Origin: Streptomyces flavochromogenes | GTDB lineage: Bacteria > Actinomycetota > Actinomycetes > Streptomycetales > Streptomycetaceae | Direction of reading: 5' to 3' | NCBI RefSeq assembly: GCF_000717595.1 | Contig: NZ_JNZO01000029.1 | Span: forward strand, 1 to 64,000 | Length of the DNA: 64,000 bases | Shown: positions 44,235-64,000 of the stretch, one piece after another | Layout: every line of letters begins with the position of its first letter | Position numbering within the stretch: the stretch's first letter is position 1 | Program-made: the position numbers and the translations under genes | The notes under the pieces: model-generated | Databases searched by the model: none | Told to the model about the DNA's origin: nothing | The model's input: only the letters and a program-made list of their open reading frames with translations

Positions 44235-44642
44235 TCAGCTGTTGCCGGCGCCGTTGCCGGACAGCACGGGGATGTCGCTGAGGATGTGCGACAGCGGCTC
44301 GTCACCCTTGGCCTGGGTGGAGTTCTCGGTGCACTGCTGGTTCTGCGGGGAGGACAGGACGTTGACGTCCTGGACCGCGATCGGGATGAGGCCGATGAGC
44401 GAACCGGCGTTGACCTTGGCCGGCAGGCCGACGCACGGCTTGTTCAGGGAGCCCTGAACGAGCGCGAACTGCGGGCTCATGTTGCCGTGGGTGGCCGAGT
44501 TGCCGAACTCCTGGTGGGCGCCGTTGCCGCTGAGCGACGTGGTGCCGCCGTCGTCGGCGATGGCGAGCGCCTGTCCGGCACCCGCCGCCGTCGCGCCGAG
44601 CACCGACGCGGCCACAGCAGCCGTAGCCAACAGCTTCTTCAT
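44235..44642 (-). CDS. rdl: Rodlin 1
   Basis: The 135-residue secreted rodlin is one of the proteins that arrange chaplin fibrils into the rodlet layer on aerial hyphae and spores. The signal peptide MKKLLATAAVAASVLGATAAGAGQALA is followed by [43 protein letters not shown] and the highly conserved [32 protein letters not shown] core. The two cysteines (about residues 75 and 107) are kept. A CGGAAC-N17-GTTGA promoter lies about 50 bases upstream. Confidence 0.95.
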   Translation of the reverse strand: MKKLLATAAVAASVLGATAAGAGQALAIADDGGTTSLSGNGAHQEFGNSATHGNMSPQFALVQGSLNKPCVGLPAKVNAGSLIGLIPIAVQDVNVLSSPQNQQCTENSTQAKGDEPLSHILSDIPVLSGNGAGNS

Positions 44643-44690
44643 TGTTCAGGCCTTTCGGATCGTGGCCCGCTGAGTGCCGAGCCGTGCTGA

Positions 44691-44718
44691 TCAACTGGTC
44701 AGCGGTGCGGAGGTTCCG
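44691..44718 (-). promoter_or_regulatory. Rodlin 1 promoter, CGGAAC-N17-GTTGA
   Basis: On the minus strand CGGAAC (44713-44718) and GTTGA (44691-44695) are 17 bases apart, about 50 bases before the rodlin ATG. The same arrangement precedes the two other rodlins. Rodlin and chaplin genes are known sigma-BldN targets. Confidence 0.65.
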
Positions 44719-44736
44719 CGAAGTCCACCGGACGGA

Positions 44737-45777
44737 CTACGGGCAGATGAGCGAAGCGCCAGGCGTCGGCCGGTAGGTGCCGACGGAGATCTGGCTGGGC
44801 GCGACCTCGTCGGCCGCCGGCAGTGGCCGGTCCTCGCGCAGCCGCAGGAAGACCTCGGCCGCCCCCTCCTCGTCCCAGGCGAGGGTGGACCCGACACCGG
44901 CGATGTCCGGGTTGAAGCCGCGTACGGGCACGGTGGCGAACTCCGTACGGTCCGGGGGCAGGTCCCGCAGCCGCCCGGCGAGCGCGAGCAGCTCGGTCGC
45001 GGAGATCCCTCGTTCGGCGGCGCCCGTCCCGCGGAGGGTCTCCGCGAAGTCCCGCAGCCGGCCGGGATCGTCGAGGATGCCCTCGCGGAGCCGCTCCAGG
45101 GTGTTCACCACGAACTTCTGCTGCTTCTGGATGCGGCCGAAGTCCATCTGCCCGTCGGCCTTCCGCGACCGCACGTACTGGAGGGCCTCGCCACCGCCGA
45201 CCGGTTTGGTCCCGGGCTGCAGGTCGATGCCGGTGGCCGGGTCCTTGAGGGCCTTCTCCGTACAGATGGGGACCCCGCCGTCGACGCGGTCCACGGTGTC
45301 CATGAAGCGCCGGAAGTCGATCTCCAGGTAGCGGTGGACGGGCAGTCCCGTCATCGACTCGACGGTCTCCACGGCGAAGGAGGAACCGCCTTCCGCCCAG
45401 GCTCCGTTGATCTTGGCCTGGTGGGCGGCGTGCAGCTTTCCGGTGCGCCGGTCGCGGTGTTGGTCGGGGAAGGAGGTGAGCGAGTCGCGGGGCAGGCTCA
45501 CCACGTCGACCCGGTCGTTCTCGGCCGAGACGTGCACGAGCATCATCACGTCCGTGCAGTCGCACTCCTTCCCGCCGAGCCGGAAACGTTCCTTCTCCTC
45601 CTCGGTGACTCCCTTGCGGCTGTCGATGCCGACCACCAGGAGGTTCAGCCCCTTGTCGGGGGCGGGGAGACCGGTGGGGACGGCGGCGAAGGCGGCGGGA
45701 GCGAGGGCGGCGAGGGCGGCGAGCGCCGCCGGGACGAGCAGCGGACGTCGGGGGCGCCGTGTTCGTGGGAATTTCAT
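44737..45777 (-). CDS. LytR-CpsA-Psr (LCP) family glycopolymer transferase
   Basis: The 346-residue exported protein starts MKFPRTRRPRRPLLVPAALAALAALAPAAFA (signal or anchor). The LCP domain follows: LLVVGIDSRKG, DVMMLVHVSAENDRVDVVSLPRDSL, KINGAWAEGGSSFAVETVESMTGLPVHRYLEIDFRRFMDTVDRVDGGVPIC and ALQYVRSRK...DFGRIQKQQKFV, including the arginines that hold the polyprenyl pyrophosphate. LCP enzymes attach teichoic acids, capsules or other glycans to the wall. Next to rodlins and an exopolysaccharide operon, it may anchor that polymer; this is inference. Confidence 0.9.
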   Translation of the reverse strand: MKFPRTRRPRRPLLVPAALAALAALAPAAFAAVPTGLPAPDKGLNLLVVGIDSRKGVTEEEKERFRLGGKECDCTDVMMLVHVSAENDRVDVVSLPRDSLTSFPDQHRDRRTGKLHAAHQAKINGAWAEGGSSFAVETVESMTGLPVHRYLEIDFRRFMDTVDRVDGGVPICTEKALKDPATGIDLQPGTKPVGGGEALQYVRSRKADGQMDFGRIQKQQKFVVNTLERLREGILDDPGRLRDFAETLRGTGAAERGISATELLALAGRLRDLPPDRTEFATVPVRGFNPDIAGVGSTLAWDEEGAAEVFLRLREDRPLPAADEVAPSQISVGTYRPTPGASLICP

Positions 45778-45895
45778 GCCCGCACGGTAATTCGATCGCT
45801 CTCGCACACAGATACACGACGCGACATGAACAGGACGAATCACTCTCCTGCGGCGCCTGTGGAATGATGCGGGAATCGCAGCGGAAGGAGCGAAG

Positions 45896-46102
45896 ATGGC
45901 GCCGGATCCCGGGAAATGGGAACGGATGGCCTTCATTCCGAAGAGCCGATATGTGAGCGACCCGCCCCCAGTCGACCGCACACCATTCCCCCTCTATTCC
46001 TCACTCGTGACCCAGTGGGTGCAGGCGGGCCGGACGGTACCGGGGATGCCCGATCGTGAATGGGAACGCCTGATGGCCACGCCGGTCTGGCCGACCTGGT
46101 AG
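45896..46102 (+). CDS. Small hypothetical protein (68 residues)
   Basis: The frame MAPDPGKWERMAFIPKSRYVSDPPPVDRTPFPLYSSLVTQWVQ continues to DREWERLMATPVWPTW. A good AAGGAG ribosome site lies 6 bases upstream. It has no signal peptide or membrane segment and is rich in Trp and Pro. I recall similar small proteins in other Streptomyces, without known function. A hairpin terminator follows at 46136. Confidence 0.6.
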   Translation: MAPDPGKWERMAFIPKSRYVSDPPPVDRTPFPLYSSLVTQWVQAGRTVPGMPDREWERLMATPVWPTW

Positions 46103-46135
46103 CGACGGGCCGGGCCGGCACGGAGCAGACGCGGA

Positions 46136-46161
46136 AGGGGCCGCCCCGGAGGGCGGCCCCT
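46136..46161. terminator. Convergent hairpin terminator
   Basis: AGGGGCCGCCC and GGGCGGCCCCT pair around a CGGA loop between the small protein gene and rodlin 2. Confidence 0.75.
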
Positions 46162-46194
46162 GACGTGTGAACGTCGTCGCGCGAAGGCGGAACG

Positions 46195-46605
46195 TCAGTT
46201 GTTGCCGACGCCGTTGCCCGACAGGACCGGGATGTCGTCCAGGATGTGCGAGAGCGCCTCGTCACCCTTGGCCTGGGTGGAGTTCTCGGTGCACTGCTGG
46301 TTCTGCGGGGAGGACAGGACGTTGACGTCCTGGACCGCGATCGGGATGGCCCCGAGGAGCGAACCGGCGTTGACCTTGGCCGGCAGACCCACGCACGGCT
46401 TGTTCAGGGAGCCCTGGACCAGCGCGAACTGGGGGCTCATGTGGCCGTACGTGGCGGAGTTGCCGTACTCCTGGTGGGCGCCGTTGCCGCTGAGCGACGT
46501 GGTGCCGCCGTCGTTGGCGATGGCGAGCGCGGGCGAGGCAACGGCGGCGGTGGCGCCGACGATGGAGACGGCTGCGGCCGCAGTGGCCATAACCTTCTTG
46601 ATCAC
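46195..46605 (-). CDS. rdl: Rodlin 2
   Basis: The 136-residue secreted rodlin is nearly identical to rodlin 1 in its mature part ([79 protein letters not shown]). The signal peptide is [28 protein letters not shown]. It is divergent from rodlin 3 and has the shared CGGAAC-N17-GTTGA promoter. High identity to rodlin 1 over both protein and promoter indicates a fairly recent duplication or gene conversion. Confidence 0.95.
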
Positions 46606-46649
46606 GGGAGTTCCCTTCTAGAACCGGCTCCGTGCAGGGAGCGACCTGG

Positions 46650-46677
46650 TCAACTGGCCACGGACGCGGGGGTTCCG
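46650..46677 (-). promoter_or_regulatory. Rodlin 2 promoter, CGGAAC-N17-GTTGA
   Basis: Minus-strand CGGAAC (46672-46677) and GTTGA (46650-46654) are 17 bases apart and about 45 bases before the start codon. Confidence 0.65.
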
Positions 46678-46746
46678 CTGTGTCACTCCCTTGGCGGAGC
46701 GCACTCGGCAGCGCCAAACGGAGGGCCAGTCGAACGGGTGAAGCGC

Positions 46747-46774
46747 CGGAACCTCAGCCCCCGCGCGCAGTTGA
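46747..46774 (+). promoter_or_regulatory. Rodlin 3 promoter, CGGAAC-N17-GTTGA
   Basis: Plus-strand CGGAAC (46747-46752) and GTTGA (46770-46774) are 17 bases apart, 49 bases before the GTG. The 17-base spacer differs from those of rodlins 1 and 2, so conservation of both boxes is meaningful. Confidence 0.65.
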
Positions 46775-46823
46775 TCCCGTCGCATCAATCAGGTCGATTG
46801 GTGGGAACAGGAACGGAATCACC

Positions 46824-47237
46824 GTGATCAAGAAGATTATGGCGGCTGCGGCTGTTACGGCCTCTGTTGTCGGCGCTTCTGCTGCGGCGGCCTCCCCGGC
46901 GCTCGCCATCGCCGACGACGGCGGCACGACCTCGCTCAGCGGCAACGGCGCGCACCAGTCGTTCGGCAACTCCAAGACCGCGGGCGACATGAGCCCCCAG
47001 TTCTCGGCCGTCCAGGGCTCGCTGAACAAGCTCTGCCTCGGTGCCCCGGTCAAGGGCAACGTCGGCTCGGTCGTCGGCGTCCTCGTCCCGGTCGCGGTCC
47101 AGGACATCAACGTCCTGTCCAACCCGCAGAACCAGCAGTGCACCGAGAACTCCACCCAGGCCAAGGGTGACGAGCCGCTGTCGCACATCCTGGAGGACAT
47201 CCCGGTCCTCTCCGGGAACGGTGCCTACAACGGCTGA
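46824..47237 (+). CDS. rdl: Rodlin 3 (diverged)
   Basis: The 137-residue secreted rodlin starts with GTG ([28 protein letters not shown] signal). The core [46 protein letters not shown] is kept, but the middle differs: [26 protein letters not shown] replaces [18 protein letters not shown]. Both cysteines remain. It is divergent from rodlin 2. The division into two similar and one diverged rodlin suggests different partners or positions in the rodlet layer. Confidence 0.95.
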
Positions 47238-47251
47238 TCCGTCTCGCGCGG

Positions 47252-47293
47252 GACAGGGCCGGAGGGAACGATCGCGTTCCCTCCGGCCCTGTC
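47252..47293 (+). terminator. Hairpin terminator after rodlin 3
   Basis: A 19-base-pair perfect stem starting GACAGGGCCGGAGGGAACG with loop ATCG, 15 bases past the stop. Confidence 0.85.
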
Positions 47294-47405
47294 GTGCGCG
47301 CAATGGAGTGAAAGAACGAAAGTCGTCGTTTTCGCGGTTTCCTTTGTGCGGCATGTTCGTTGTGTTGCGTGAAAGTGTTCCGCCACCGAAAGGATGCAGA
47401 CGAAA

Positions 47406-47639
47406 ATGAACTGTAAGAAGGCTGCTGCCGTCGTCGCCGGAATCATCATGGCCATGGGTGCGGCGACCCCCGCCTTCGCCGACGCGGGCGCCGAGGGTCT
47501 CGCGATCGGCTCGCCGGGCGTCCTCTCCGGCAACGTCGTCCAGATCCCGATCCACGCGCCGATCAACGTCTGCGGCAACAGCGTGAACGTCATCGGTGTG
47601 CTCAACCCGGCCGCGTTCAACACCTGCGCCAACTTCTGA
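47406..47639 (+). CDS. chp: Short chaplin
   Basis: The 77-residue protein has a signal peptide (MNCKKAAAVVAGIIMAMGAATPAFA) and a single chaplin domain: DAGAEGLAIGSPGVLSGNVVQIPIHAPINVCGNSVNVIGVLNPAAFNTCANF. The two cysteines form the usual intramolecular disulfide. Short chaplins assemble into amyloid fibrils that make aerial hyphae hydrophobic. ATG 47406 is used; an upstream in-frame ATG at 47394 sits on top of the only ribosome site. No CGGAAC/GTTGA promoter was seen here. Confidence 0.95.
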   Translation: MNCKKAAAVVAGIIMAMGAATPAFADAGAEGLAIGSPGVLSGNVVQIPIHAPINVCGNSVNVIGVLNPAAFNTCANF

Positions 47640-47663
47640 GCCCCGAGCGGCTCGCAGGCACAG

Positions 47664-47705
47664 GGGCCGGCCCCCGGGAGCGCACCCGCTCCCGGGGGCC
47701 GGCCC
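47664..47705. terminator. Bidirectional hairpin terminator
   Basis: GGGCCGGCCCCCGGGAGCG and its exact complement form a 19-base-pair stem with a 4-base loop between the chaplin and the convergent flavoprotein gene. Confidence 0.85.
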
Positions 47706-47709
47706 TCCC

Positions 47710-48996
47710 TCATGCCGAGACGGGCGCCTTGCGGCCCGTACGCGGCCGGCCCACCGTTCCGCCCCGGGCACCCGCGCGCAGCCGCTGCCGCACACCCCGC
47801 ACGAGACGCCCCGCCGTGTACTCGGCGCCGAGGACGAACCGCATCGAGGGACCGTACGAAGGAGCGGTGAGCAGTCCCGCGAGGAACAGGCCCGGCCACG
47901 AGGACTCGAAGAGACCGCCGACCTCGGGGGCGCCGCCCACGCCGACCGTCCGCAACGCGCCGCGCAGCTCCGGGGAGAGCATGCCCGCCCGGTCCAGGCT
48001 CGGTGTGAAACCGGTGGCCGCGACGACATGGTCGGTCTCCAGGACCGTCGCCCCCTCCGGCCCGGTCACGTCGAGCCGCAGCCGCTCGTCCCCGGTCACG
48101 GTCGCCGCGGTGATCCGCTGCCCGAGGCGTACGTCCGCGACCGCCGTGAACCGCTCACGCAGCCACCAGGCCCCTGCCGGGCCGAGCGCCGAGTCGAAGA
48201 GCCGCTCCCGGGTCGCGGCCGGCAGCCGCCGGAAGACCCCCGGCGTGTCCGCGTACAGCTTGTTCCGCCAGCCGCAGCCGAGCCCCGTGTGCGGGGCGCA
48301 CACGCTCGGCCACAGGCCCCGGTCGAGGGCCGGGGGCAGGGTGTTCCAGCTCAGCCGGTCCGCGCGGGCGAGGATCCGCACCGTCGCGGCACCCTCCTCG
48401 ACCAGGAGTGCGGCCGTCTCCAGGGCGGCCTGCCCGGCCCCGACGACGGTCACGTCCCGGCCCGCGAAGCGGTCCAGGTCGCCGTGGTGGCTGGAGTGGG
48501 TCGCATACCGCCGGGGCAGGCCCCGCAGCGGCCCCGGCATCTCCCTGAACGGCAGGACGCCGACCGCCAGCGCCACCGTCCTGGTCCGCAGCGCCTCGCC
48601 GTCCTCGGTACGCAGCTCGAACCCGTCCGCGCAGGGCGCGACCGAGTCGATCAGACGCTCGTCGAGCGCCGGCACCGCCCGCCGGGCGAACCAGTCGCCG
48701 TACGCGGCGAAGAAGCCCACGGGCAGCGGAACCCCGTGCGTGGCGCGCACGCCCCGCGTGGCGGCGTAGGCGTCGAGCCCGTACGCCCGCTCCGGGTCGG
48801 AGAGATGTGAGGCCCAGGGCTCCGACTTCAGGAACATGCCCGAGGGCATCGCGTGCCAGGACCCCATCGAGCGGCCGAAGGTCCGCAGGCGCAACCCGTG
48901 GGCGGCCGCGTGCGCGGCGACGGACAGACCGTACGGTCCCGCCCCGACGACCACCAGGTCGTACATCGACTTCGACATCGTGCCTTCCGCCTTCAT
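47710..48996 (-). CDS. FAD/NAD(P)-dependent oxidoreductase (monooxygenase-like)
   Basis: The 428-residue flavoprotein has FAD motif YDLVVVGAGPYGLSVAAHAAA near the N-terminus, NAD(P) motif VTVVGAGQAALETAALL near 180, and the ATG-type motif HVVAATGFTP near 345. This is the layout of flavin-containing monooxygenases and N-hydroxylases. The ATG at 48996 overlaps the TGA of the ATP-grasp gene (ATGA), so the two are coupled; an ATG at 48978 with GGAAGG before it would remove six residues. It may oxidise a small molecule made or joined by the ATP-grasp enzyme. Substrate unknown. Confidence 0.85.
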   Translation of the reverse strand: MKAEGTMSKSMYDLVVVGAGPYGLSVAAHAAAHGLRLRTFGRSMGSWHAMPSGMFLKSEPWASHLSDPERAYGLDAYAATRGVRATHGVPLPVGFFAAYGDWFARRAVPALDERLIDSVAPCADGFELRTEDGEALRTRTVALAVGVLPFREMPGPLRGLPRRYATHSSHHGDLDRFAGRDVTVVGAGQAALETAALLVEEGAATVRILARADRLSWNTLPPALDRGLWPSVCAPHTGLGCGWRNKLYADTPGVFRRLPAATRERLFDSALGPAGAWWLRERFTAVADVRLGQRITAATVTGDERLRLDVTGPEGATVLETDHVVAATGFTPSLDRAGMLSPELRGALRTVGVGGAPEVGGLFESSWPGLFLAGLLTAPSYGPSMRFVLGAEYTAGRLVRGVRQRLRAGARGGTVGRPRTGRKAPVSA

Positions 48997-50336
48997 CGTG
49001 GGGTGAGCTGGTGGGAGGAACTGCGGGCCGGCGGCGCCGACGGGGAGATCGCCGGACCCGCCCGCCGGGACCCGAGGAACCGGCGCGCCGACGCCACCGC
49101 CCTGCGCAGCAGGTGCCCGAGCCAGACGAGGCCCATCGCGAGCGCCGGTGCCGGGTCGTCCGCCGCGCACCAGGCGTACTCGGTCCGCCGCGACATGCCC
49201 TCCACCCCGGCACCGTCCCGGTCCGCGGGGCGGCGCCGCGGGGAGGTGAGGAGCGACAGCGCCGCGTAGTTCTCGACCACGAACCGGCGCCCGTACGCGG
49301 GGGAGTGCGGGGGTACGGGACGCCCGGTGAGGTCCAGATGGAGCGCCCGGACCACGTCCAGACCGTTCGCGTCGGCGAAGAGCCGGAACTGCGCGCCGGG
49401 CCGGGGATTGAAGTCGAGCAGGTGGTACGCCCCCGTCGCCCGGTTCATCCGGAAGTCCAGGTCGCACACCCCCCGGAAGCCGAGCGCGCCGCACAGCTCG
49501 CGGGCCGCGCGCTCCACGGCCGGGTTCGCCGTCCAGCGGCCCACGGCGGTGAGCCCGGCCCCGTCCGGCCAGGACCGCTCCTTGCACCCCGTCGCCCCCG
49601 TCGAGCAGCCGCCGTTCGCGTCCACGTACCCGTGGAAGAACCAGTCCAGGTCACGGCCCGCCGGGAGGAGTTCCTGGAGCAGCAGCCGGCTGCCGGCCTC
49701 CGGGGCCCGGGCGTACAGCTCCCGCACCTCCGCGAGGGACCGCACGATCGAGGTGCTGCGCAGCCCGCCGCCGGCCGGAAGCAGCCAGGGACGGCTCCAC
49801 TTGGCGACCACCGGCAGGCCGAGCGACCACGCCATCGCGGCGGCCTCGTCGGCACCGGTGGGGAGTTCGGTACGGGGGTGGGGCAGGCCAAGGGACGCAC
49901 AGGTCTCGGCGAGCTCCGCCTTGTCCGCGACCCGCAGCAGCTGCTCCTCGGTCTGCTCGGGCAGCAGGAAGCGCGGGGACAGCTCGGCGCGGCGGCGCGC
50001 CAGGCCGAGGGCGCTCACGTCGTCCAGGGGAAGGACGAGGAGGGGAGTTGACGCATCGTCGGGTGCCGGGCTCGTCCCGTTCACGATCTCGTCCGCGTAC
50101 CGGTGGAGAAGCGCGGCCAGCTCGGTGTCGGAGGTCTCCCCGGGGCTCGCCCGGGCCGACCGGAGATAACGGGAACGGGTGACCGGGCTGGTCCCCGATT
50201 CGATGACCGCGTGGACCGGAATTCCCGCCCGGCCCAGGGAACGCGCGGCGCCGAGCGTGCCGTGATGGAAGGGATTCCGGTCGAGCCGCACAAGGATGGT
50301 GGGGACGCGGGTGTCGAAACTCTGACGACGCGGCAC
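48993..50336 (-). CDS. ATP-grasp ligase (carboxylate-amine ligase-like)
   Basis: The 447-residue protein is cytoplasmic. Residues about 12-110 form a pre-ATP-grasp fold (PTILVRLDRNPFHHGTLGAARSLGRAGIPVHAV). The ATP-grasp domain follows with KAELAETCASLGLPHPRTELP, LGLPVVAKWSRPW, LLLQELLPAGRDLDWFFHGYVD and the metal-binding FRGVCDLDFRMNRATGAYHLLDFNPRPGAQFRLF. Such enzymes join a carboxylate to an amine through an acyl-phosphate. The C-terminal 90 residues include a hydrophobic segment (PALAMGLVWLGHLLRR). It is divergent from the GH26-like gene and may modify a surface glycan. Confidence 0.85.
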   Translation of the reverse strand: MPRRQSFDTRVPTILVRLDRNPFHHGTLGAARSLGRAGIPVHAVIESGTSPVTRSRYLRSARASPGETSDTELAALLHRYADEIVNGTSPAPDDASTPLLVLPLDDVSALGLARRRAELSPRFLLPEQTEEQLLRVADKAELAETCASLGLPHPRTELPTGADEAAAMAWSLGLPVVAKWSRPWLLPAGGGLRSTSIVRSLAEVRELYARAPEAGSRLLLQELLPAGRDLDWFFHGYVDANGGCSTGATGCKERSWPDGAGLTAVGRWTANPAVERAARELCGALGFRGVCDLDFRMNRATGAYHLLDFNPRPGAQFRLFADANGLDVVRALHLDLTGRPVPPHSPAYGRRFVVENYAALSLLTSPRRRPADRDGAGVEGMSRRTEYAWCAADDPAPALAMGLVWLGHLLRRAVASARRFLGSRRAGPAISPSAPPARSSSHQLTPR

Positions 50337-50464: not shown

Positions 50465-50492
50465 AAAACGCGTACGACGCGAAGGAGCGGCC

Positions 50493-52172: not shown

Positions 52173-52197
52173 CGGCGGCGGAGATCATCCGCCGCCG
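52173..52197. terminator. Convergent hairpin at the end of the exopolysaccharide operon
   Basis: CGGCGGCGG-N7-CCGCCGCCG overlaps the last codons of the CelD-like gene and follows the GH26-like stop by ten bases. Confidence 0.55.
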
Positions 52198-55972: not shown

Positions 55973-57875
55973 GGGGGGTCCTCCGGGAGGCGGAGCGGGG
56001 CAGGGGCGGAATCTCGGGCGCCTTGGCGGCGCAGGCGATGAAGATCAGGAAGACGCCGGTCACGACCAGTCCCGCCACCGCGACGGCGAGGGCTGCGGGG
56101 CCGATCGCGAGCTGGCACAGCCAGCCGGCGCCGGTGGCCCACGCGCCCGCGGTGGCGAGCCGGAGCAGACCCTCGCCGAGCCGTTCGACGTGGACCGGTA
56201 CGGCCTGCCGGTGCGCTCCGCGCAGCAGCAGGACCGCGGTCAGGGTGATGCCGAGGGCGTTGGCGGCGGCGATGCCGACGGCGCCCCAGTAGTGGGCGCC
56301 GGGGACTCCGGCGGCGGCGGTGGTGACGAGCCCGGCGGCCATCGCGGCGGCCGGGTACCAGAGCGGGCGCGCGGCGGAGAAGTAGCAGCGGACCAGGGCG
56401 CCCACCATCGTCTGGCCGAGCAGCCCGAGGGCGTAGACCCGCATGACGGCGGCGGTCGCGACGGTGTCGCCACGGGTGAACTCGCCGCGCTCGAAGAGGA
56501 GCTCGACGATCCGGGGCGCGGACGCGATCACCGTCGAGGCGCCGACGAGGACGACGACGGCGGCGAGCAGCAGGTCCCGCTCGACGCGACGGCGGGCCGC
56601 CTCCGTCTCGCCCGCCGCGAGGGCGCGGGCGACCACGGGGAAGCTGACCGTGCACAGCATCAGGGAGAGGATCATGGGCATCTGCGCCACCTTCTGCGCG
56701 TAGTTCAGATGCGAGATGGCGCCGGCGGGCAGCGGCGAGGCGAGGAAGCGTTCGATCAGCGTCTGGGACTGGCGGGACAGCGAGAACGCGACGACGGGCG
56801 CGATCAGACCGAGGACCAGGATGCGGCCCTCACCGGTGGAGGGCGGCGTGAGCGTCTCGGGCTCCCCCAGGGGGACGGGGCGGGCGCGCAGCTCCCGGAT
56901 GAGCGAGGGGGCCTGGACGAGGACCATCAGGATTCCGCCGACGGCGACCCCGGCGGCGGCCGAGCGCACGCCCCACGGATCGCGGAGCAGCAGGATGGTG
57001 CCGATGATGCCGGCGTTGTAGGCCACGTAGATGGTGGCCGGTGGCAGGAACGAGCCGTGCGCGCGGAGCGCCGCCGAGCAGTAGCCGACCAGGGCGAAGG
57101 TCAGGACGCAGGTCCCGGTCAGCCGCGTGCAGTCGATCGCGAGCCCGGGGTCGGGCAGTCCGGGCGCGAGCGCCCCGACGATCAGCGGGGCGGCGGCGAT
57201 CAGGATCGCGGCGATGACACCGACGGCGAGGGTGAGCCGGGGGAGGGTGCCGCGCACGAGGGCGCGCACGGGGTCGCCGGACAGCCGGCCGGAACGGCGG
57301 GCCAGGGCGCGGGAGAAGGCGGGCACCAGGATCAGCGCCATCGCGTCCTCGATGAGCAGCGTCGAGGCGAACTCCGGCACCGTCCACGCCACCAGGAACG
57401 CGTCCGTCTCGGCGCCGGCCCCGAAGTACCCGGCCAGGATCTGGTCCCGTACGAGCCCGAGCAGCGCCCCGACCGCGGTGAGCCCGGCGGTCACGGCGGT
57501 GGCCTTCGCGAGGAACCCCCGGCCCTCGGGCGCGCCGGTCCTGGCCTTTCGGCCCCGCGCGTGGGCACGGCGGCCGGAGGGCCGGGGGGAAGGGGCGCGG
57601 GAGGGGACGGCGCGGGACGGGGCGGTGCGGGGGGCGGCCGTACGGAGGGGGGCGGTACGGGGCACGGGCGGCGGCACGGCTCCCGTACCCGCGCTCGGAC
57701 CCGTCCCCGGCAGCACGACGGCCTCCGGGGGCCACGGGGAGTCCGTGGGGCCCGGAGGCGCGGTCGGCCAGGGGTCGGTCAGCGGGATGCCGCAGGGCGG
57801 TGGGCCCGTGGGGCGCGGTTCACCGGCCCGCGGGGTGTCCGTGGGCTCCGGTTGCCCGGCCCACGGGTCACGCAC
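55869..57875 (-). CDS. MurJ/Wzx-type lipid-linked oligosaccharide flippase
   Basis: The 668-residue protein belongs to the MOP superfamily. Residues 1-115 are a Pro/Arg-rich cytosolic extension absent from most relatives. The 14-helix flippase follows, with GALLGLVRDQILAGYFGAGAETDAFLVAWTVPEF typical of MurJ, LNYAQKVAQMPM and ELLFERGEFTRGDTVAT. In this operon it most likely flips the exopolysaccharide repeat unit, as Wzx does, rather than lipid II. GTG start overlaps the Wzy stop by 8 bases. Confidence 0.88.
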   Translation of the reverse strand: MRDPWAGQPEPTDTPRAGEPRPTGPPPCGIPLTDPWPTAPPGPTDSPWPPEAVVLPGTGPSAGTGAVPPPVPRTAPLRTAAPRTAPSRAVPSRAPSPRPSGRRAHARGRKARTGAPEGRGFLAKATAVTAGLTAVGALLGLVRDQILAGYFGAGAETDAFLVAWTVPEFASTLLIEDAMALILVPAFSRALARRSGRLSGDPVRALVRGTLPRLTLAVGVIAAILIAAAPLIVGALAPGLPDPGLAIDCTRLTGTCVLTFALVGYCSAALRAHGSFLPPATIYVAYNAGIIGTILLLRDPWGVRSAAAGVAVGGILMVLVQAPSLIRELRARPVPLGEPETLTPPSTGEGRILVLGLIAPVVAFSLSRQSQTLIERFLASPLPAGAISHLNYAQKVAQMPMILSLMLCTVSFPVVARALAAGETEAARRRVERDLLLAAVVVLVGASTVIASAPRIVELLFERGEFTRGDTVATAAVMRVYALGLLGQTMVGALVRCYFSAARPLWYPAAAMAAGLVTTAAAGVPGAHYWGAVGIAAANALGITLTAVLLLRGAHRQAVPVHVERLGEGLLRLATAGAWATGAGWLCQLAIGPAALAVAVAGLVVTGVFLIFIACAAKAPEIPPLPRSASRRTPHARRHRAEPSAAEAAPVDEASPVGGDVPLDHGHR

Positions 57876-59181
57876 GCCGGACCTCCGCGAGGGCCCACCA
57901 GGCCGCGAGGCCCAGCACGACCGACATCAGGACCGTCGAGGGGCCGCCGATGTCCGCGTAGAAGAAGTCGATGAGCTGCCAGCCGAGCAGGCCCGTCGCG
58001 ACGAGCGCGCAGTCGGCGCCGAGGCGGCGGCGCCGCAGCGCGCCGACGAGCAGCGCCACCCAGCTGCCCGTGAGGGCGAGCAGGCCGAACAGGCCCTGCT
58101 CGCTGAGGACCAGCAGGTACATGTTGTGCGGGGACAGCAGCGGCTGACGCGCGAAGGCGGCGCCCGCGCCGGCCGTGTCGCTGCCGGAGGACAGGGCGAG
58201 GGAGGCGTTCGAGTCGCGGTACTGCGGGAAGCCCTTGAGGCCGACGCCGGTGACGGGCTCTGATGCCCACATCCGCCCGGCCGCCGCCCACATCGTGTAC
58301 CGGTCCGTCACCGACTGGTCCGGCGCGGCCGTCACCTGGGTGATGCTGGCGACCCGCTCCTTCACCATCGCAGAGCCGATGCCGAGGCCGCCGACCAGGA
58401 CCACCCCGAGCGCGCCGGCGGCGAGGGCCACGCGCGCGGCCCGCCGGGGCCCCGAGAGCAGCAGCTGGATCCCGCAGGCGAGCACGGTCGCGATCCACGC
58501 CCCCCGGCTGAACGACAGCACGAGCGGCAGGAAGAGCAGTCCGGCGCAGACCAGCGCGGCCGTCCGGGTCCGGCCCGGCCCGCTGCCGAGGGCGATCCCG
58601 GTGACGACGACGAGCCCGTACGACACGACGGTCGCCATGCCCATCACATCGGTCGGCCCGAAGGTGCCGACGGCCCGGATGTCCTCACCCATGTACGAGG
58701 CGCCGGTGCCGGTCAGGTACTGGGCGACGCCGACCGCGCCCTGGAGCAGCGCGAGCCCGACAAGACCCCAGGCGACCACGGCGAAGTCCCGCCGGTCACG
58801 GATCATCAGAAGCACGGCGGCCGGGACGAGCACGAAGATCTGCACGTACCGGGCGACGCCCGGCAGGCTGGCCGCCGGGTCGTTCGAGGTGATCGCCGCG
58901 AGACAGATCCCGAGGACCGGCAGGCCGAGGACGACGGCCGCCGTCCGGGTCAGCGGCCGGGCGCCGCCGCGCAGCACCCGGACGAGACAGATCAGGACGA
59001 GCAGCCCGGAGGCCGCGTCGGCGACCGTCCCCGTACCGCCGGTGCCGCCCTGCGCGCCGCCGCCGCCCGGGACGACCAGCAGGGCGATCACGGCGAGGAC
59101 CGGGGAGAGCGCCCCGGCCCTGCGCGCCCAGTCCCGTACGTCGTCCGGGGCGAGCGCCGGCACCGTCACGGCCGTGGCCAT
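57868..59181 (-). CDS. O-antigen ligase/polymerase-like protein (Wzy)
   Basis: The 437-residue membrane protein has about 11-12 hydrophobic segments and one large external loop with the Wzy_C-type GVGLKGFPQYRDS and SPHNMYLLVLSEQGLFGLLAL motifs. It would join flipped repeat units into polymer. It follows the sugar transferase by two bases and overlaps the flippase. Confidence 0.88.
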   Translation of the reverse strand: MATAVTVPALAPDDVRDWARRAGALSPVLAVIALLVVPGGGGAQGGTGGTGTVADAASGLLVLICLVRVLRGGARPLTRTAAVVLGLPVLGICLAAITSNDPAASLPGVARYVQIFVLVPAAVLLMIRDRRDFAVVAWGLVGLALLQGAVGVAQYLTGTGASYMGEDIRAVGTFGPTDVMGMATVVSYGLVVVTGIALGSGPGRTRTAALVCAGLLFLPLVLSFSRGAWIATVLACGIQLLLSGPRRAARVALAAGALGVVLVGGLGIGSAMVKERVASITQVTAAPDQSVTDRYTMWAAAGRMWASEPVTGVGLKGFPQYRDSNASLALSSGSDTAGAGAAFARQPLLSPHNMYLLVLSEQGLFGLLALTGSWVALLVGALRRRRLGADCALVATGLLGWQLIDFFYADIGGPSTVLMSVVLGLAAWWALAEVRRA

Positions 59182-59183
59182 CC

Positions 59184-60632
59184 TCAGCTCCCTGTGGGTC
59201 GGACGAGGCCGGCCGCCGTACGCAGCAGGATGCAGACGTCCTGCCAGAGCGACCAGTGGTCGATGTAGTGGTTGTCGAAGCGGCAGCGGTCCTCGATCGA
59301 GGTGTCGCCGCGCAGCCCGTGCACCTGCGCCAGACCGGTCAGCCCCACGGGCATCCGGTGCCGGGCCGCGTAACCGGCGTGGATCTTGCTGAACTGGGTG
59401 ACGAAGTAAGGGCGTTCGGGCCGCGGCCCGACCAGGCTCATGTCACCGCGCAGCACGTTCCACAGCTGCGGCAGCTCGTCGAGCGAGCTCTTCCGCAGGA
59501 AGCTCCCGGCCGCGCTCATCCGCCGGTCGCCCGCCACGTTCCAGCGGGTCGCCGACTCGGTGTCGTCGGATGGGCGGAGCGTACGGAACTTGAGCAGCGT
59601 GAAGTGCCGCCCGTGCTGGCCCACCCGCTCCTGCCGGAACAGCACCCCGGGACCGTCCGCGAGACGCACGGCGAGCGCGCAGAGCAGCAGCACCGGCAGC
59701 GCGAGGGCCAGCGCGGGCGCGGCGAGCACGATGTCGAGGGCGCGCTTGGCGGGCAGACGGCGCCGCTCGACCGGCGGCACGATGCGCTGCCAGGCGTACC
59801 CCCACATGTGCGCGCCCATCGGACCGTCCTGGTGCCGTCCGCCGACCCGCCAGGTCGTGCAGCCGTAGTGCTGGAAGAGGGTCACGAGCGCCGGGTCGTC
59901 GTGGAGGAACACCGCGTCGCGCACGGTGTTCTGGATGACGGCCCGGTGGATCTCCTCGGTCGTGGTGAGCACCGGAAGACCGGACTCGCCGGCCGACCGG
60001 GGCGCGCCACCCTGCTCGGGCACGCCGACGATGCCCACCGCCCGTACCCCGTACTCGGGATGCTGGGCGGCCGCGGAGGCGAACCGGCGCGCGGCCCCCG
60101 CCCCGCCGACGACCAGCGCCGACCGGGGATGGGCGCGGGCGATCAGACGCCGCCGGCTGAGCAGCAGCGCCCGGACCAGGATCACGACGCCGACGTGTGC
60201 GGCGTACGCGGCGCAGAGCCGCAGCGGTCCGATCGCCAGGGTCGGGGAGTACGCGGCCACTCCTGCCGCCGCCAGACACCAGGCGACGCCGGCACGGGAG
60301 GCGAGCGCCGGCAGTTCGTCGAGGGCCCGGGTGTGCGGGGCAGGGCGGTGGAGCCCCGCGTGCCCGTCGAGGGCGAGGACGAGCGCCACGACCGGCAGTA
60401 GCAGCCGGGCGTCGTGGTGCGCCGCGCTCAGCAGCGTGGCGGCGGACAGAACGGCCAGGCAGTCGACCGCGACGAGCGGCAGCACGCCGGACCGCGGCCG
60501 CGCGGGGCGGTACGGGAGGGCGAGCCGGTCGGTCCTGCGGCGGCTCGGTGCGAGGGAGGCGAGGCCGTAGGCCTGGCCCGCCGTGGGCCACGGGCCCGGT
60601 GAGGGAGGGACGCTGGTGCTTTCGGTGGTCAC
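59184..60632 (-). CDS. Polyprenyl-phosphate sugar transferase (initiating)
   Basis: The 482-residue membrane enzyme starts repeat-unit synthesis by moving a sugar phosphate to undecaprenyl phosphate. Four N-terminal membrane helices (about 48-150) are followed by a Rossmann-like domain (SALVVGGAGAARRFASAA), then the C-terminal bacterial-sugar-transferase domain: KRALDIVLAAPALALALPVLLL, FRQERVGQHGRHFTLLKFRTL, KSSLDELPQLWNVLRGDMSLVGPRPE. GTG overlaps the upstream GT stop (GTGA). WbaP/ExoY family; the sugar is probably a hexose but not provable. Confidence 0.92.
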   Translation of the reverse strand: MTTESTSVPPSPGPWPTAGQAYGLASLAPSRRRTDRLALPYRPARPRSGVLPLVAVDCLAVLSAATLLSAAHHDARLLLPVVALVLALDGHAGLHRPAPHTRALDELPALASRAGVAWCLAAAGVAAYSPTLAIGPLRLCAAYAAHVGVVILVRALLLSRRRLIARAHPRSALVVGGAGAARRFASAAAQHPEYGVRAVGIVGVPEQGGAPRSAGESGLPVLTTTEEIHRAVIQNTVRDAVFLHDDPALVTLFQHYGCTTWRVGGRHQDGPMGAHMWGYAWQRIVPPVERRRLPAKRALDIVLAAPALALALPVLLLCALAVRLADGPGVLFRQERVGQHGRHFTLLKFRTLRPSDDTESATRWNVAGDRRMSAAGSFLRKSSLDELPQLWNVLRGDMSLVGPRPERPYFVTQFSKIHAGYAARHRMPVGLTGLAQVHGLRGDTSIEDRCRFDNHYIDHWSLWQDVCILLRTAAGLVRPTGS

Positions 60633-61765
60633 TGCGCAATCGGCTCTCTGTGCTCGGTGCCTCGCACTCCGGCCAGTTCGCGGTAGACGTCCGCGACGGC
60701 CGCGCCGGTGCGCCGGACATCGAATCTGCTGAGTACGTGCTCGTGGGCCTCGCGGCCCAGGCGGTGCCGGAGCTCTTGCCTGCCGAGGAGGCGGCCGAGA
60801 GCGGTGGCGAGCGAGGCCGGGTCCTCGGGCGGGACCAGGCACAGGGGTTCATGGGCGGGTGGCAGGCTCTCGCGGGCCCCGTCGACATCGCTGACGACGA
60901 CCGGCCGGCCGGCGGCCATGGCCTCCAGGGGCGCGAGCGCCATGCCCTCCCAGCGGGACGGCAGGACGACCACGTCGGCGGCCCGGTACCAGGGGACGGT
61001 GTCGTCGACGGCTCCGGTGAACCGCACCGAGGGGCCGGCGGCGGCGCGCAGCCGGTCGCCGTCGGGGCCGTCGCCGACCAGGACGAGACGGGCCGTCGGC
61101 ACCTCCGCGAGAACGGCGGGCCAGGCGGCGAGCAGCACGTCCTGCCCCTTCTGGCGGCAGAGCCGGCCCACGCAGACGAGGGTGGGCGCGGGGTTGCCGG
61201 GCGGTCCGTCGGTCGCGAACCGGGCCACGTCCACACCGTTGTGGACGACGGACCAGTCGGCCGTGACCCCGGCGGCCTCGCCGGTACGCCGCTCGGCCTC
61301 GCTGACGCAGAGGATCCGGTCGGTCCAGCGGGCGCCGAAGCGCTCCCAGCGGCGGGCCAGCGAGGCGGTCGTTCCCTCGACCGCCTCGAAGGACCAGGCG
61401 TGCGGCTGGTACACCGTCGGAATCCGTCCGCGCAGGACGAGTCGGGCGCACAGCCCGGCCTTCGCGCTGTGCGCGTGGACGAGTCCGGGGCGGACGGCAC
61501 GGATCACCCGGGCGAGGCCTCGGGTCTCGCGGACGAGCTCGGGCCCTGGGTTCCGGCCGGCCCGCCAGACATGGGTGTCGGCCCCCTCGGCACGTACGGC
61601 GGCGGCGAGGGCGGTGTCGGGTGGGCAGGCGACCGCGACCCGCAGACCAGCGGCGAGTTGGGCGCGGACGAGGTCGATGACGACACGGGCGACCCCGCCG
61701 TCGCCGGGCTGGACCGCGTGCAGGACGGTGACGGACCCGGGGTCCGTGTCTCGTGGAGGCAGCAC
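60629..61765 (-). CDS. Glycosyltransferase, GT4 type
   Basis: The 378-residue GT-B enzyme has VTVLHAVQPGDGGVARVVIDLVRAQLAAGL at the start, VHAHSAKAGLCARL, ILCVSEAE, VVHNGVDVARF, TLVCVGRLCRQKGQDVLL, LVLVGDGPDGDRL and PSRWEGMALAPLEAMAAGRPVVVSD (donor E-x7-E). GTG at 61765 starts one base after the upstream stop; a longer frame reaches 61918 but would overlap the secreted-protein gene. Second sugar-adding enzyme of the pathway. Confidence 0.87.
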   Translation of the reverse strand: MLPPRDTDPGSVTVLHAVQPGDGGVARVVIDLVRAQLAAGLRVAVACPPDTALAAAVRAEGADTHVWRAGRNPGPELVRETRGLARVIRAVRPGLVHAHSAKAGLCARLVLRGRIPTVYQPHAWSFEAVEGTTASLARRWERFGARWTDRILCVSEAERRTGEAAGVTADWSVVHNGVDVARFATDGPPGNPAPTLVCVGRLCRQKGQDVLLAAWPAVLAEVPTARLVLVGDGPDGDRLRAAAGPSVRFTGAVDDTVPWYRAADVVVLPSRWEGMALAPLEAMAAGRPVVVSDVDGARESLPPAHEPLCLVPPEDPASLATALGRLLGRQELRHRLGREAHEHVLSRFDVRRTGAAVADVYRELAGVRGTEHREPIAQ

Positions 61766-61766
61766 G

Positions 61767-62825
61767 TCAGCGCCGGACGTCCGCCTGGAAGAAGAGCGCA
61801 CCGAGCCAGACGGTGTCCTTCCGGCTCCCCGACCGGACGTGGACACGGTCGGCCCCATCGCGCAGTGCCCCCCGCAGGTCGAAGACGTCGGAGTCGTACC
61901 CGAGAGTTTTCGTACCATCGGGTGAGCGGACCGTGCGACCGGTGCCGAATTCGGTGATGCTGGAGTTCATCACGTCGTCCGCGGAATTGGCGGAATCGGA
62001 GAGCCGGATGCTCTTCGAGCGGCTCGTTTCCACCGCCAGGTAATCACCGGAAGTACCCCGGTCACCGTCATAGGCGATCACTCCGAGAGTGCCGTTCGTG
62101 GCCTTGCCGTAACGGTTTGCGTCGAGCGGTACGCGAAGCTCGCCGGAGCGCGGTCCGACCGTTTCGAATCCGTCCCAGACGCCGATCCTGCGGAGTGGTT
62201 CCGAGGCCTTCTCGTACGCGGCGACGAGCGTCCAGCCACCCCAGCCGCCGACCGCCGACCGGCCCATGGCGACGTTGACCTGAGCGACCGTCCACTGCCC
62301 CGAACGGGAGGAACGGACCAGCTCGGTGACATCGGCGGAGGCCTGGAACGCATCGGCGCCGTCGGCCGTCCGGTGGCCGATCAGAGTGTCCGCGAGCAGC
62401 GCCTTGTACGCGCCGCCGGGCTCGGCGATCAGCACCCGGCCGTTGTCCCTGGGCGGCTTCTGCTCGCCCACCCGCAGGTTGCCGCCCCAGTAGAGACGGG
62501 CCCAGCTGATCCGGGCGCCCGCGGGGACGGCGAGTTCCGCACGGCTGGAGTTGTACGTGTTGGGGTCGCTGTCCACGTCGACGTAGGCGATCGTGGCGTC
62601 GTCGTTGACCGACTCGGTGCCCTTCGCGCCCTTCGCCGAGGAGTTGGCCGCGCGCACGACCCCACCGTGCTGCACGGACTGGTAGCGCGCGGCGAACGGG
62701 ACGCGGCTCGCCTCCCGGGGCTGGGGGGCTGAGGCGGAGGCGACCGGCAGCGCGGCCGACAGCGCCGCACACGACAGGGCGCACAACACGCTGCGACGCA
62801 CAGCAAGAACCGCTGAATTCCGCAT
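61767..62825 (-). CDS. Secreted DUF3344-like surface protein, first gene of the exopolysaccharide operon
   Basis: The 352-residue protein has a signal peptide (MRNSAVLAVRRSVLCALSCAALSAALPVASASA). The mature part is beta-rich: DDATIAYVDVDSDPNTYNSSRAELAVPAGARISWARLYWGGNLRVG, WTVAQVNVAMGRSAVGGWGGWTLVAAYEK, GVIAYDGDRGTSGDYLAV. This looks like the module seen in large adhesin-like proteins (DUF3344 type, from memory). No anchor follows, so it is released or bound to glycan. Leading a polysaccharide operon, it could be a matrix protein. Confidence 0.75.
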   Translation of the reverse strand: MRNSAVLAVRRSVLCALSCAALSAALPVASASAPQPREASRVPFAARYQSVQHGGVVRAANSSAKGAKGTESVNDDATIAYVDVDSDPNTYNSSRAELAVPAGARISWARLYWGGNLRVGEQKPPRDNGRVLIAEPGGAYKALLADTLIGHRTADGADAFQASADVTELVRSSRSGQWTVAQVNVAMGRSAVGGWGGWTLVAAYEKASEPLRRIGVWDGFETVGPRSGELRVPLDANRYGKATNGTLGVIAYDGDRGTSGDYLAVETSRSKSIRLSDSANSADDVMNSSITEFGTGRTVRSPDGTKTLGYDSDVFDLRGALRDGADRVHVRSGSRKDTVWLGALFFQADVRR

Positions 62826-62932
62826 ACAGGTTCTCCGCTTAGATGAGAGAAGGAAGGGAAGACCCGTGAAGGCCGGGAGGGGGGAAGGTGTCGTCCGCAC
62901 GAAATGGGTGAACGCGCGGCGGGCCCGGAAGC

Positions 62933-62948
62933 AACGTTCGGGAACGTT
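62933..62948. promoter_or_regulatory. Palindrome AACGTTC-GG-GAACGTT
   Basis: A perfect inverted repeat overlaps the last three bases of the -10 hexamer of the leftward operon. That position would let a bound protein block transcription start. Confidence 0.6.
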
Positions 62949-62974
62949 ATAACCCCGACGCGGGGCGATAGTAA
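62946..62974 (-). promoter_or_regulatory. Probable promoter of the exopolysaccharide operon
   Basis: Minus-strand TTACTA (62969-62974) and TATAAC (62946-62951) are 17 bases apart, a housekeeping-type arrangement, 120 bases before the first gene. Confidence 0.5.
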
Positions 62975-63085
62975 GCATTAGATGCCTGGAAACGCTAACT
63001 CCCGTATCCACGGGGCAGGTTCCTCGTTGAGCGTGTTGCGCCATTCCACGCCCACTCCCTCCAATGGCCCTCCTATGGCCCAAAG

Positions 63086-63122
63086 ATCGGTTGAACGTCA
63101 CCCGTTCGGGAGAGCAACCGAT
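63086..63122. promoter_or_regulatory. Nested inverted repeat upstream of the chaplin
   Basis: Outer arms ATCGGTTG and CAACCGAT (8 bases, perfect) enclose an inner repeat GAACG-N5-CGTTC. It lies 32 bases upstream of the chaplin -35 box. Confidence 0.5.
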
Positions 63123-63153
63123 GAAAAGCCGGGGCGTTGTTGAGAGAGCCGGG

Positions 63154-63180
63154 CCGAACAGTCCGCGCAGTCCACGTTGA
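63154..63180 (+). promoter_or_regulatory. Chaplin promoter, CCGAAC-N16-GTTGA
   Basis: CCGAAC (63154-63159) and GTTGA (63176-63180) resemble the rodlin promoters, with one -35 difference and a spacer one base shorter, 24 bases before the ATG. Confidence 0.5.
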
Positions 63181-63204
63181 ATTTCGATCGAGGAGCACTT
63201 CCCC

Positions 63205-63444
63205 ATGTCCCGTATCGCCAAGGCCGTTGTCCTGACCGTGGGTGCCGCTGCCGCGGTCGCCGGTGCCGCCGGTGCCGCCACCGCCGACGCCGGCGCCGAG
63301 GGCGCGGCCGTGAAGTCCCCCGGTGTCGGCTCCGGCAACGTCGTCCAGGTCCCGGTGCACATCCCGGTCAACCTCTGCGGCAACACGGTCAGCGTCATCG
63401 GCGCGCTGAACCCGACCTTCGGCAACACCTGCGTCAACGCCTGA
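63205..63444 (+). CDS. chp: Short chaplin
   Basis: The 79-residue protein has signal MSRIAKAVVLTVGAAAAVAGAAGAATA and one chaplin domain, DAGAEGAAVKSPGVGSGNVVQVPVHIPVNLCGNTVSVIGALNPTFGNTCVNA, with both cysteines. It is a second, distinct chaplin of the island, divergent from the exopolysaccharide operon. GAGGAG precedes the ATG. A strong terminator follows. Confidence 0.95.
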   Translation: MSRIAKAVVLTVGAAAAVAGAAGAATADAGAEGAAVKSPGVGSGNVVQVPVHIPVNLCGNTVSVIGALNPTFGNTCVNA

Positions 63445-63470
63445 TCCGGCACGCCTGATCAGTCCTTCCG

Positions 63471-63512
63471 AAGCCGGTGTGCCCACTCCCGACGGGGTGG
63501 GCACACCGGCTT
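63471..63512 (+). terminator. Hairpin terminator after the chaplin
   Basis: AAGCCGGTGTGCCCAC and its complement GTGGGCACACCGGCTT flank a 10-base loop and are followed by TCTCCTTG. Confidence 0.8.
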
Positions 63513-63721
63513 TCTCCTTGTCGTCATGGGGGTGGTACTCGTTCGTCGGCACCGTCGTGCGCCGGTCGGTGCAACGGCGTACGCCCCTTCGGGGGGCATG
63601 TTCGAGGGGTGGATTCACTCGAACGGAGGCGTGGCGCTCAGTAGTTCTGCGGTTGCGGAGCGCTATACCCGCAGGCACGGTGAGAGGGAAGTTGTCCGAC
63701 GCATAAGGAAAAGGAACACAT

Positions 63722-64000
63722 ATGCGTCCCCTGGCTACACGCCGCATCACCGCCCTGGCGATATCCGCCGTCATCACCCTCGGCACGGCGGGACCCGCCT
63801 TCGCCGACGAACACCATCCGTCCACCGCGGCCGAACGGGCCGCCCGCGCACCTCTCCCCGACGCCGCCGCCCTGCTGACCCAGGCCGAGGCGCTCGGAGA
63901 CCTCGGCTCGGTGACCACCCCCGTGACCGAACTCGTCACGGCCGCGCTCAAGGCCGACTCCGGTCAGCTCCCCGCCGCCGACGCCGAGGCCCTCAAGGCC
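63722..64000 (+). CDS. Secreted protein, partial (runs off the window)
   Basis: At least 93 codons are visible. The signal peptide MRPLATRRITALAISAVITLGTAGPAFA is followed by an Ala-rich helical stretch (TAAERAARAPLPDAAALLTQAEALGDLGSVTTPVTELVTAALK). AAGGAA ribosome sites precede the ATG. No family is recognised from this part. It lies behind the chaplin and its terminator, with a weak CGAAC-N16-GTAGTT element upstream. Confidence 0.7.
   Translation, partial: MRPLATRRITALAISAVITLGTAGPAFADEHHPSTAAERAARAPLPDAAALLTQAEALGDLGSVTTPVTELVTAALKADSGQLPAADAEALKA

Follow-up and report, generated by a model that had tools for sequence, protein, structure and literature searches.

A Wzx/Wzy-type exopolysaccharide operon that lies near chaplin genes in Streptomyces and is distributed independently of rodlins

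Introduction

Streptomyces biology still asks what keeps short chaplins and rodlets attached to aerial hyphae and spores, a question on which the locus described here bears. It is found in a stretch of 64,000 nucleotides of Streptomyces flavochromogenes (assembly GCF_000717595.1, contig NZ_JNZO01000029.1, positions 1 to 64,000; the window in what follows), where rodlin and chaplin genes flank a nine-gene operon of the Wzx/Wzy-dependent exopolysaccharide (EPS) type. Does such an operon belong to the rodlet machinery? An earlier reading of this DNA from its letters alone (the sequence-only reading) had proposed that a probably de-N-acetylated and acylated polymer is made together with the rodlin and chaplin sheath and may anchor or order it. 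We find that the operon is of an ordinary Wzx/Wzy EPS kind and common across the genus, that it lies near chaplins and that it is distributed independently of rodlins. Judging from gene content, we give a probability of roughly 0.6 to a dedicated EPS module, formed by an eight-gene core plus a GH26-like gene and often a flavoprotein and an ATP-grasp gene, that would make a surface polymer independently of rodlins; its best reading is that of an old neighbour of the chaplins.

Results

The operon consists of nine minus-strand genes, from that of a secreted protein (61767-62825) to that of an acyltransferase (52185-53345), with neighbours mostly overlapping or a few bases apart:

61767..62825, minus strand: secreted beta-rich protein, first gene of the operon here (PF11824, DUF3344, 30.4 against a cut-off of 27.2)
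60629..61765, minus strand: family 4 glycosyltransferase (GT4) a (PF13692, 136 bits; scanned as 60629-61918)
59184..60632, minus strand: initiating polyprenyl glycosylphosphotransferase (TIGR03025, 309.3 against a cut-off of 295.55; scanned as 59184-60842)
57868..59181, minus strand: Wzy_C polymerase (PF04932, 62.5 bits)
55869..57494, minus strand, start possibly up to 57875: MurJ-family flippase, the presumed Wzx (PF03023, 200.1 bits)
55169..55972, minus strand, start uncertain: polysaccharide deacetylase (PF01522, 101.6 bits)
54039..55172, minus strand: GT4 glycosyltransferase b (PF13439, PF00534)
53342..54025, minus strand: Wzz-like chain-length protein (TIGR01006, 25.3 bits, below the cut-off of 296; no Pfam match)
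52185..53345, minus strand: tandem-GNAT acyl- or aminoacyltransferase, FemX-like (PF13480, 85.8 bits)

As judged by these profile matches, the initiating transferase, flippase and Wzy genes of a Wzx/Wzy-dependent EPS pathway are present. The flippase is of the MurJ family and not a classical Wzx (TIGR01695, 226.2 bits, below the cut-off of 235.55), and the Wzy_C match fits a polymerase or a ligase, between which the sequence does not decide. The deacetylase keeps its TFDDG motif in 102 of 102 relatives and its D/H/H metal ligands in 98-99 of the 99 that could be aligned (98/99 for the two ligand histidines). It has no evident signal peptide, the predicted start being uncertain, and the lipid-linked unit is therefore its probable substrate. 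The structure model of the acyltransferase (pLDDT, the predicted local distance difference test, 91) has its best fold matches in FemX, FemA and related aminoacyl-tRNA-dependent enzymes, with template-modelling scores (query length) of about 0.5-0.6, and an aminoacyl donor is therefore as possible as acetyl-CoA. Searches of the PDB by sequence, with the acyltransferase as query and with a rodlin profile, returned nothing useful, and the model of the secreted first-gene protein (mean pLDDT 70) had no credible fold match. The putative glycosidase encoded just beyond the operon matches the GH26 family profile and carries both glutamate motifs: the WEMNG glutamate is found in 94 of 94 relatives and the PEWG glutamate in 92 of 94, and these two we take to be the catalytic pair. 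It begins with a signal-peptide-like segment. The polymer chemistry proposed by the sequence-only reading is thus upheld, as the Wzx/Wzy gene set, the deacetylase ligands and the FemX-type fold support a probable de-N-acetylated, N-acylated product.

Conservation was followed in 150 genomes of the genus, with operon presence scored by Wzy. This gene was found in 110 of them (in some in pieces), and a profile recheck of the 40 negatives returned just three short matches (some 50 residues, 20-24 bits). Usable places numbered 101, the window and 100 others, nine Wzy-positive genomes with fragmentary or contig-end matches being left out; of the 100 fetched stretches, 88 were full, reaching from some 6 kb upstream of Wzy to about 14 kb beyond it, and the 12 incomplete loci do not enter the counts. 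In 80 of the 88 full loci the eight-gene core was unchanged in gene order and strand, which is far beyond chance. The Wzz-like gene was found in 87 and GT4 b in all 88, a GH26-like gene lay within the stretch in 85, and the ATP-grasp and flavoprotein genes were present in 52 and 42, respectively.

Two neighbours were rejected as parts of the core. One is the secreted first gene, present in only 42 of the 88. The other is the LCP gene, which the sequence-only reading had counted into its combined system and which proved not to be conserved. The first LCP count (12/88) was biased, as some 13 kb separate this gene from Wzy and place it near the stretch ends; extending 20 of the 22 LCP-less loci with rodlins on that side by about 8 kb (two were not extended) added a single LCP gene, for a total of 13/88.

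The relation to rodlins is the crucial point. Rodlins were found in 112 of the 150 genomes, and the 38 negatives gave no rodlin match in a profile recheck. Both operon and rodlins were present in 80 genomes, the operon without rodlins in 30 of its 110, rodlins without the operon in 32 of their 112, and neither in eight (Fisher odds ratio 0.67, p=0.40). The two are therefore distributed independently in the genus, and the link between them that the sequence-only reading had drawn does not hold at this level; nor does a dependence of the operon on rodlins, which we rejected on this independent occurrence, with the negatives rechecked as described. That reading was to fall if the operon proved mostly rodlin-free or away from rodlins, and here the outcome is divided: within the fetched stretches of about 20 kb rodlins were near at 44 of the 88 full loci, on either side of the operon. 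Among the 67 full loci of rodlin-bearing genomes these 44 become 45 if we count G094, one case of rodlins just outside the stretch, which this scoring misses. The remaining 21 full loci are in rodlin-free genomes, and ten of them have a chaplin. From the 32 genomes with rodlins only we took 17 for a comparison of rodlin loci; a chaplin stood beside the rodlins in 16 of them, one retained the flavoprotein, ATP-grasp and GH26 genes and another a lone GT4 match. This gene content, together with the layouts described below, indicates that the operon and the rodlin cluster are separable units. A review states that rodlins are apparently lost readily and that obvious ones occur only in streptomycetes (PMC4255298), in agreement with their distribution in the 150 genomes.

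The situation with chaplins is different. Matches to the chaplin hidden Markov model were found at 71 of the 88 full loci, against the ca. 1% that we estimate for random 20 kb stretches, so that the operon lies near chaplins, as the sequence-only reading had it. The full loci fall into several arrangements. In layout I (33 loci) the rodlins are beyond GH26 as in the window, in layout II (11 loci) they are on the opposite side, and in layout III (15 loci) a chaplin directly follows the acyltransferase on the same strand with no rodlin in the stretch; another 13 loci have chaplins only, and 16 have neither chaplin nor rodlin. In the three layout III loci that we read, tyrosinase-like genes (named by eye) come after the chaplin. 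Mapped onto a Wzy tree, the five arrangements require 13 changes, against a mean of 51.6 when shuffled; this is a quick tree with weak basal support, and several loci at its base have neither chaplin nor rodlin. Chaplins themselves are present in all 150 genomes, with a mean of 9.95 matches per genome where operon and rodlins are both present, 8.28 with rodlins only, 7.0 with the operon only and 7.62 with neither. In rodlin-bearing genomes the operon thus goes with more chaplin matches (p=0.007, kinship uncorrected), a hint at most, and in rodlin-free genomes there is no such rise.

A record titled Microtetraspora glauca NRRL B-3735 has a Wzy 86% identical and a Streptomyces-type layout of rodlin, chaplin and EPS genes; its name may be wrong.

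Outside the genus the module reappears in one other family of the class (f17). In a class-wide sample of 296 genomes, Wzy matches with E<1e-100 outside Streptomyces occurred only in this family (five genomes), the remaining ones being weak (best 3.6e-13), and an order-level sample gave no Wzy match among 15 genomes of other families. Within f17, 11 of 100 genomes had a match at E<1e-100. Ten of these 11 loci share one layout of flavoprotein, ATP-grasp, GH26, a GT4 a-like gene and a run of Wzz, GT4 b, deacetylase, MurJ, Wzy and initiating transferase, and the eleventh is cut by a contig end. The GT4 a-like gene sits between GH26 and Wzz, unlike in Streptomyces, where it precedes the initiating transferase; the two GT4 genes are distinguished here only by best match. 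No rodlin match was found at any of the 11 loci, nor was there an LCP match at them. Two of the loci (L236 and L237) carry a multi-domain chaplin protein after the flavoprotein gene (PF03777, 57 and 79 bits), and it is chiefly because of this reappearance that we give a possible chaplin link more weight than a rodlin link.

The surroundings of L237 have features of their own. The multi-domain chaplin-like protein and then a sortase gene (16340-18189) lie directly beyond the EPS module, and upstream of it three small, similar secreted proteins are encoded in tandem (1976-3077).

The coat region around the operon contains, besides, the following features (the cut-off of the rodlin model NF041022 is 75 bits):

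44235..44642, minus strand: rodlin 1, a coat-gene neighbour outside the EPS module (NF041022, 218.9 bits)
44691..44718, minus strand: promoter of rodlin 1, rodlin-type CGGAAC-N16-AGTTGA, presumably of sigma-BldN type
44737..45981, minus strand: LCP (LytR-CpsA-Psr) glycopolymer transferase, a poorly conserved neighbour (PF03816, 128.7 bits)
46195..46605, minus strand: rodlin 2 (NF041022, 217.4 bits)
46650..46677, minus strand: promoter of rodlin 2, rodlin-type
46747..46774, plus strand: promoter of rodlin 3, rodlin-type
46824..47237, plus strand: rodlin 3 (NF041022, 215.1 bits)
47394..47639, plus strand: first short chaplin (PF03777, 91.9 bits, cut-off 21)
47710..48978, minus strand: FAD-dependent oxidoreductase (flavoprotein), lysine/ornithine N-monooxygenase-like (PF07992, PF13434)
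48993..50336, minus strand: ATP-grasp protein, a weak match (PF02786, 22.7 bits, cut-off 19.8)
50493..52163, plus strand: secreted GH26-like glycosidase with a long Pro-Glu-Pro-Lys tail (PF02156, 24.7 bits, cut-off 20.2)
62933..62948, no strand: conserved palindrome AACGTTCGGGAACGTT in the operon/chaplin intergenic region
63113..63140, plus strand: rodlin-type promoter-like site of the second chaplin (score 17.47, just below the threshold of 17.59)
63205..63444, plus strand: second short chaplin, divergent from the operon (PF03777, 96.7 bits, cut-off 21)

Every class of gene named by the sequence-only reading, i.e., three rodlins, two chaplins, LCP, the flavoprotein and ATP-grasp pair, the GH26-like glycosidase and the nine-gene operon, is thus present. 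The stretch of coat genes goes on past the window edge (contig positions 66945-70926, locus L009), with an additional chaplin at 67011, a tyrosinase gene (PF00264) with a small companion gene and, beside the tyrosinase gene, a second GH26-like gene (69943-70926) with 62% identity to that of the window. To the left of the region lies a large TPR/NB-ARC-like ATPase gene (37478-40957, 1159 aa). An Rfam scan gave no match reaching the gathering score.

The upstream regions of the three rodlins in the window share the promoter listed above, 72-77 bases before the start. In the wider sample, 24 of 25 listed rodlin upstreams had the motif GNAAC-N16/17-NGTTG at a distance of 71-76 bases from the start, and the plain pattern GNAAC-N15-18-NGTT occurred in 79 of 86, against 1.5 of 86 in shuffles. 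This is presumably a promoter of sigma-BldN, which targets chaplin and rodlin genes (PMC4125116). A weight matrix trained on these rodlin upstreams themselves, so that its 74/86 there is by construction, found no site in 100 operon, 90 GH26 and 55 ATP-grasp upstreams, although it is insensitive, only 5 of 81 chaplins passing it. The BldD-box consensus is TNAC-N5-GTNA (PMC4151990), and a palindrome resembling it, located between the ATP-grasp and GH26 genes, was found in 35 of 90 GH26 upstream regions, with 2.0 expected. Counts of words and dyads upstream of the operon and of GH26 pointed to this GH26 dyad; the words may reflect shared ancestry. The intergenic region between operon and chaplin is strongly conserved, and AACGTTCGGGAACGTT does not vary between the window and 15 relative loci aligned with it, which represent 13 distinct genomes since two of the 15 repeat genomes already in the set; five of the 20 loci had no usable intergenic stretch.

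Discussion

What would such a module do? The initiating transferase would place a sugar-1-phosphate onto undecaprenyl phosphate, and the two GT4 enzymes would lengthen the lipid-linked unit, on which the cytosolic deacetylase may free an amine that the FemX-fold enzyme (re)acylates or aminoacylates. The MurJ-type flippase would export the unit, Wzy and Wzz would polymerise it, and the secreted GH26-like enzyme could trim or release the polymer. The product may be a cohesive, partly cationic glue like the Caulobacter holdfast, on aerial hyphae or spores, and the gene neighbourhood alone suggests that it could share a layer with the chaplins. This polymer would neither need rodlins nor be needed by them, rodlins and LCP being neighbours, and the operon probably encodes a surface-glue pathway of its own and does not belong to the rodlet machinery.

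Several observations weigh against this picture. Regarding the enzymes, the Wzz-like and ATP-grasp assignments rest on weak matches, and 6 of the 88 genus loci and 7 of the 11 loci of f17 (a match in 4/11) show no acyltransferase gene, which is either absent there or escapes detection, so that acylation may not be universal. In the three layout III loci read, the GH26-like gene sits past the chaplin and the tyrosinase-like genes and may therefore correspond to the second GH26 gene beyond the window; by score, 13 of the 15 layout III proteins are closer to the window's gene and two to the second, with small margins where shown. Regarding the chaplins, 17 of the 88 full loci have none nearby, and 9 of the 11 loci in f17 have none adjacent, the matches there being on other contigs or more than 1 megabase away. 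Moreover, chaplin proximity is phylogenetically clustered (7 fewest state changes), so that inheritance alone may explain much of it, and chaplins, being present in every genome of the sample, do not need an operon found in 110 of the 150. As for regulation, BldD boxes are not in excess at operon upstreams (3/100, with 2.9 expected), the window has no BldD-box match between 44 and 64 kb, and the rodlin-type site is missing from the operon upstreams (0/100, with the matrix that passes only 5/81 chaplins). Finally, we found no expression, mutant or chemical data on the operon in the open-licence literature.

The closeness to chaplins may be only historical: a general EPS or capsule operon would have settled in the chaplin-tyrosinase region and been passed on there vertically, without contributing to the coat. 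The clustering of the arrangements on the Wzy tree speaks for it, as do several deep-branching genus loci and the nine f17 loci with no chaplin nearby, and promoters of the rodlin type, as scored by the matrix, are not shared. However, chaplin proximity persists through layouts I, II and III, and the two f17 chaplins reappear beyond the flavoprotein gene, i.e., on the chaplin side of layout I. We regard this view as rather unlikely. A bolder reading would make the product the missing glycan partner of the chaplins, a cationic, N-acylated, holdfast-like polymer that keeps the fibrils of short (sortase-less) chaplins attached to aerial hyphae and spores. It would predate the split between Streptomyces and f17, rodlins would have been added later in Streptomyces, and GH26-like enzymes would remodel the polymer. 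We put this forward only tentatively and hold it to be doubtful.

That the product is a cell-wall glycopolymer and not a free EPS, the adjacent LCP enzyme attaching it to peptidoglycan, appears improbable: the LCP gene (44737-45981, PF03816) is close by in the window, yet it is near few of the full loci even after their extension, and no LCP match was found at the f17 loci, although LCP paralogues elsewhere in the genome, for which no search was made, could still act. Most improbable is the polymer of the sequence-only reading, which would serve rodlins and chaplins together and order the rodlet layer, for the nearness of rodlins at half of the full loci (44 of the 67 in rodlin-bearing genomes) is set against independent occurrence, 11 f17 modules with no rodlin match and upstreams of operon and GH26 in which the insensitive matrix found no rodlin-type promoter.

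For the dedicated, rodlin-independent EPS module that we prefer, the significance lies in offering the question of how the coat is held a concrete gene set, present in 110 of 150 genomes, with chaplins beside 71 of the 88 full loci and with modification enzymes of kinds known from adhesive polymer. Rodlin-free genomes with the operon and rodlin genomes without it are natural controls.

Comparison with known systems

In S. coelicolor, SCO2705 is chpF, SCO2717 is chpD and SCO2718 is rdlA (PMC3610822), and we infer that the genes between chpF and chpD/rdlA are this operon. With the locus tags of these presumed orthologues the open-licence literature yielded only chpF and one passing mention of SCO2713, and no experimental description of the operon was found there.

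Among developing actinomycetes, the imp and wps-1 clusters of the sporangium of Actinoplanes missouriensis are also Wzx/Wzy clusters, and imp adjoins gimB, which encodes a matrix-degrading glycoside hydrolase (PMC12691653, PMC13390465). They differ in that the hydrolase is a GH5 enzyme (according to a figure legend), the presumed Wzy is the Alg6/8-like ImpE and no deacetylase is among the seven imp genes described; the product of wps-1 is presumed to be a sulfated polymer, and the word chaplin does not occur in the main text of either paper (PMC12691653, PMC13390465). The Ebosin (ste) cluster of Streptomyces sp. 139 is likewise an EPS cluster with a glycosyl-1-phosphate transferase and genes of polymerisation and export (PMC11078827), but its published description includes regulators, sugar-nucleotide genes (PMC11078827) and DasABC-like genes (PMC8902715).

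Both GT4 enzymes, Wzy, the initiating transferase and the deacetylase match NCBIfam models of the XrtA/PEP-CTERM exosortase EPS clusters, all below cut-off, and there is no exosortase among the nine operon genes. The cellulose-like glycan of CslA/GlxA is a Streptomyces surface glycan tied to adhesion; CslA/GlxA and MatAB are synthase-dependent, not Wzx/Wzy, and their genes differ from those of this operon. The MatAB glycan (poly-N-acetylglucosamine, PNAG) is similarly a surface glycan of Streptomyces tied to adhesion (PMC5972031).

The likeness to the holdfast (hfs) system of Caulobacter lies in the modification enzymes. There, glycosyltransferases, a deacetylase and a FemX-like tandem-GNAT modifier act on an oligosaccharide that is lipid-linked, flipped and polymerised. 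The differences are that the NCBIfam matches to HfsE (160, cut-off 750) and HfsH (49, cut-off 400) are both below cut-off, that hfsK is outside the core hfs locus in two holdfast species, whereas the acyltransferase is inside this operon, and that the neighbours here are chaplins and a GH26-like enzyme. A FemX-like tandem-GNAT modifier and a deacetylase occur together in this operon. HfsK has two tandem GNAT domains and, among homologues with a solved structure, is closest to FemX, and a HfsK mutant is similar to a mutant of the deacetylase HfsH (PMC5362036); both proteins affect the cohesion and anchoring of the holdfast (PMC5362036, PMC8449245).

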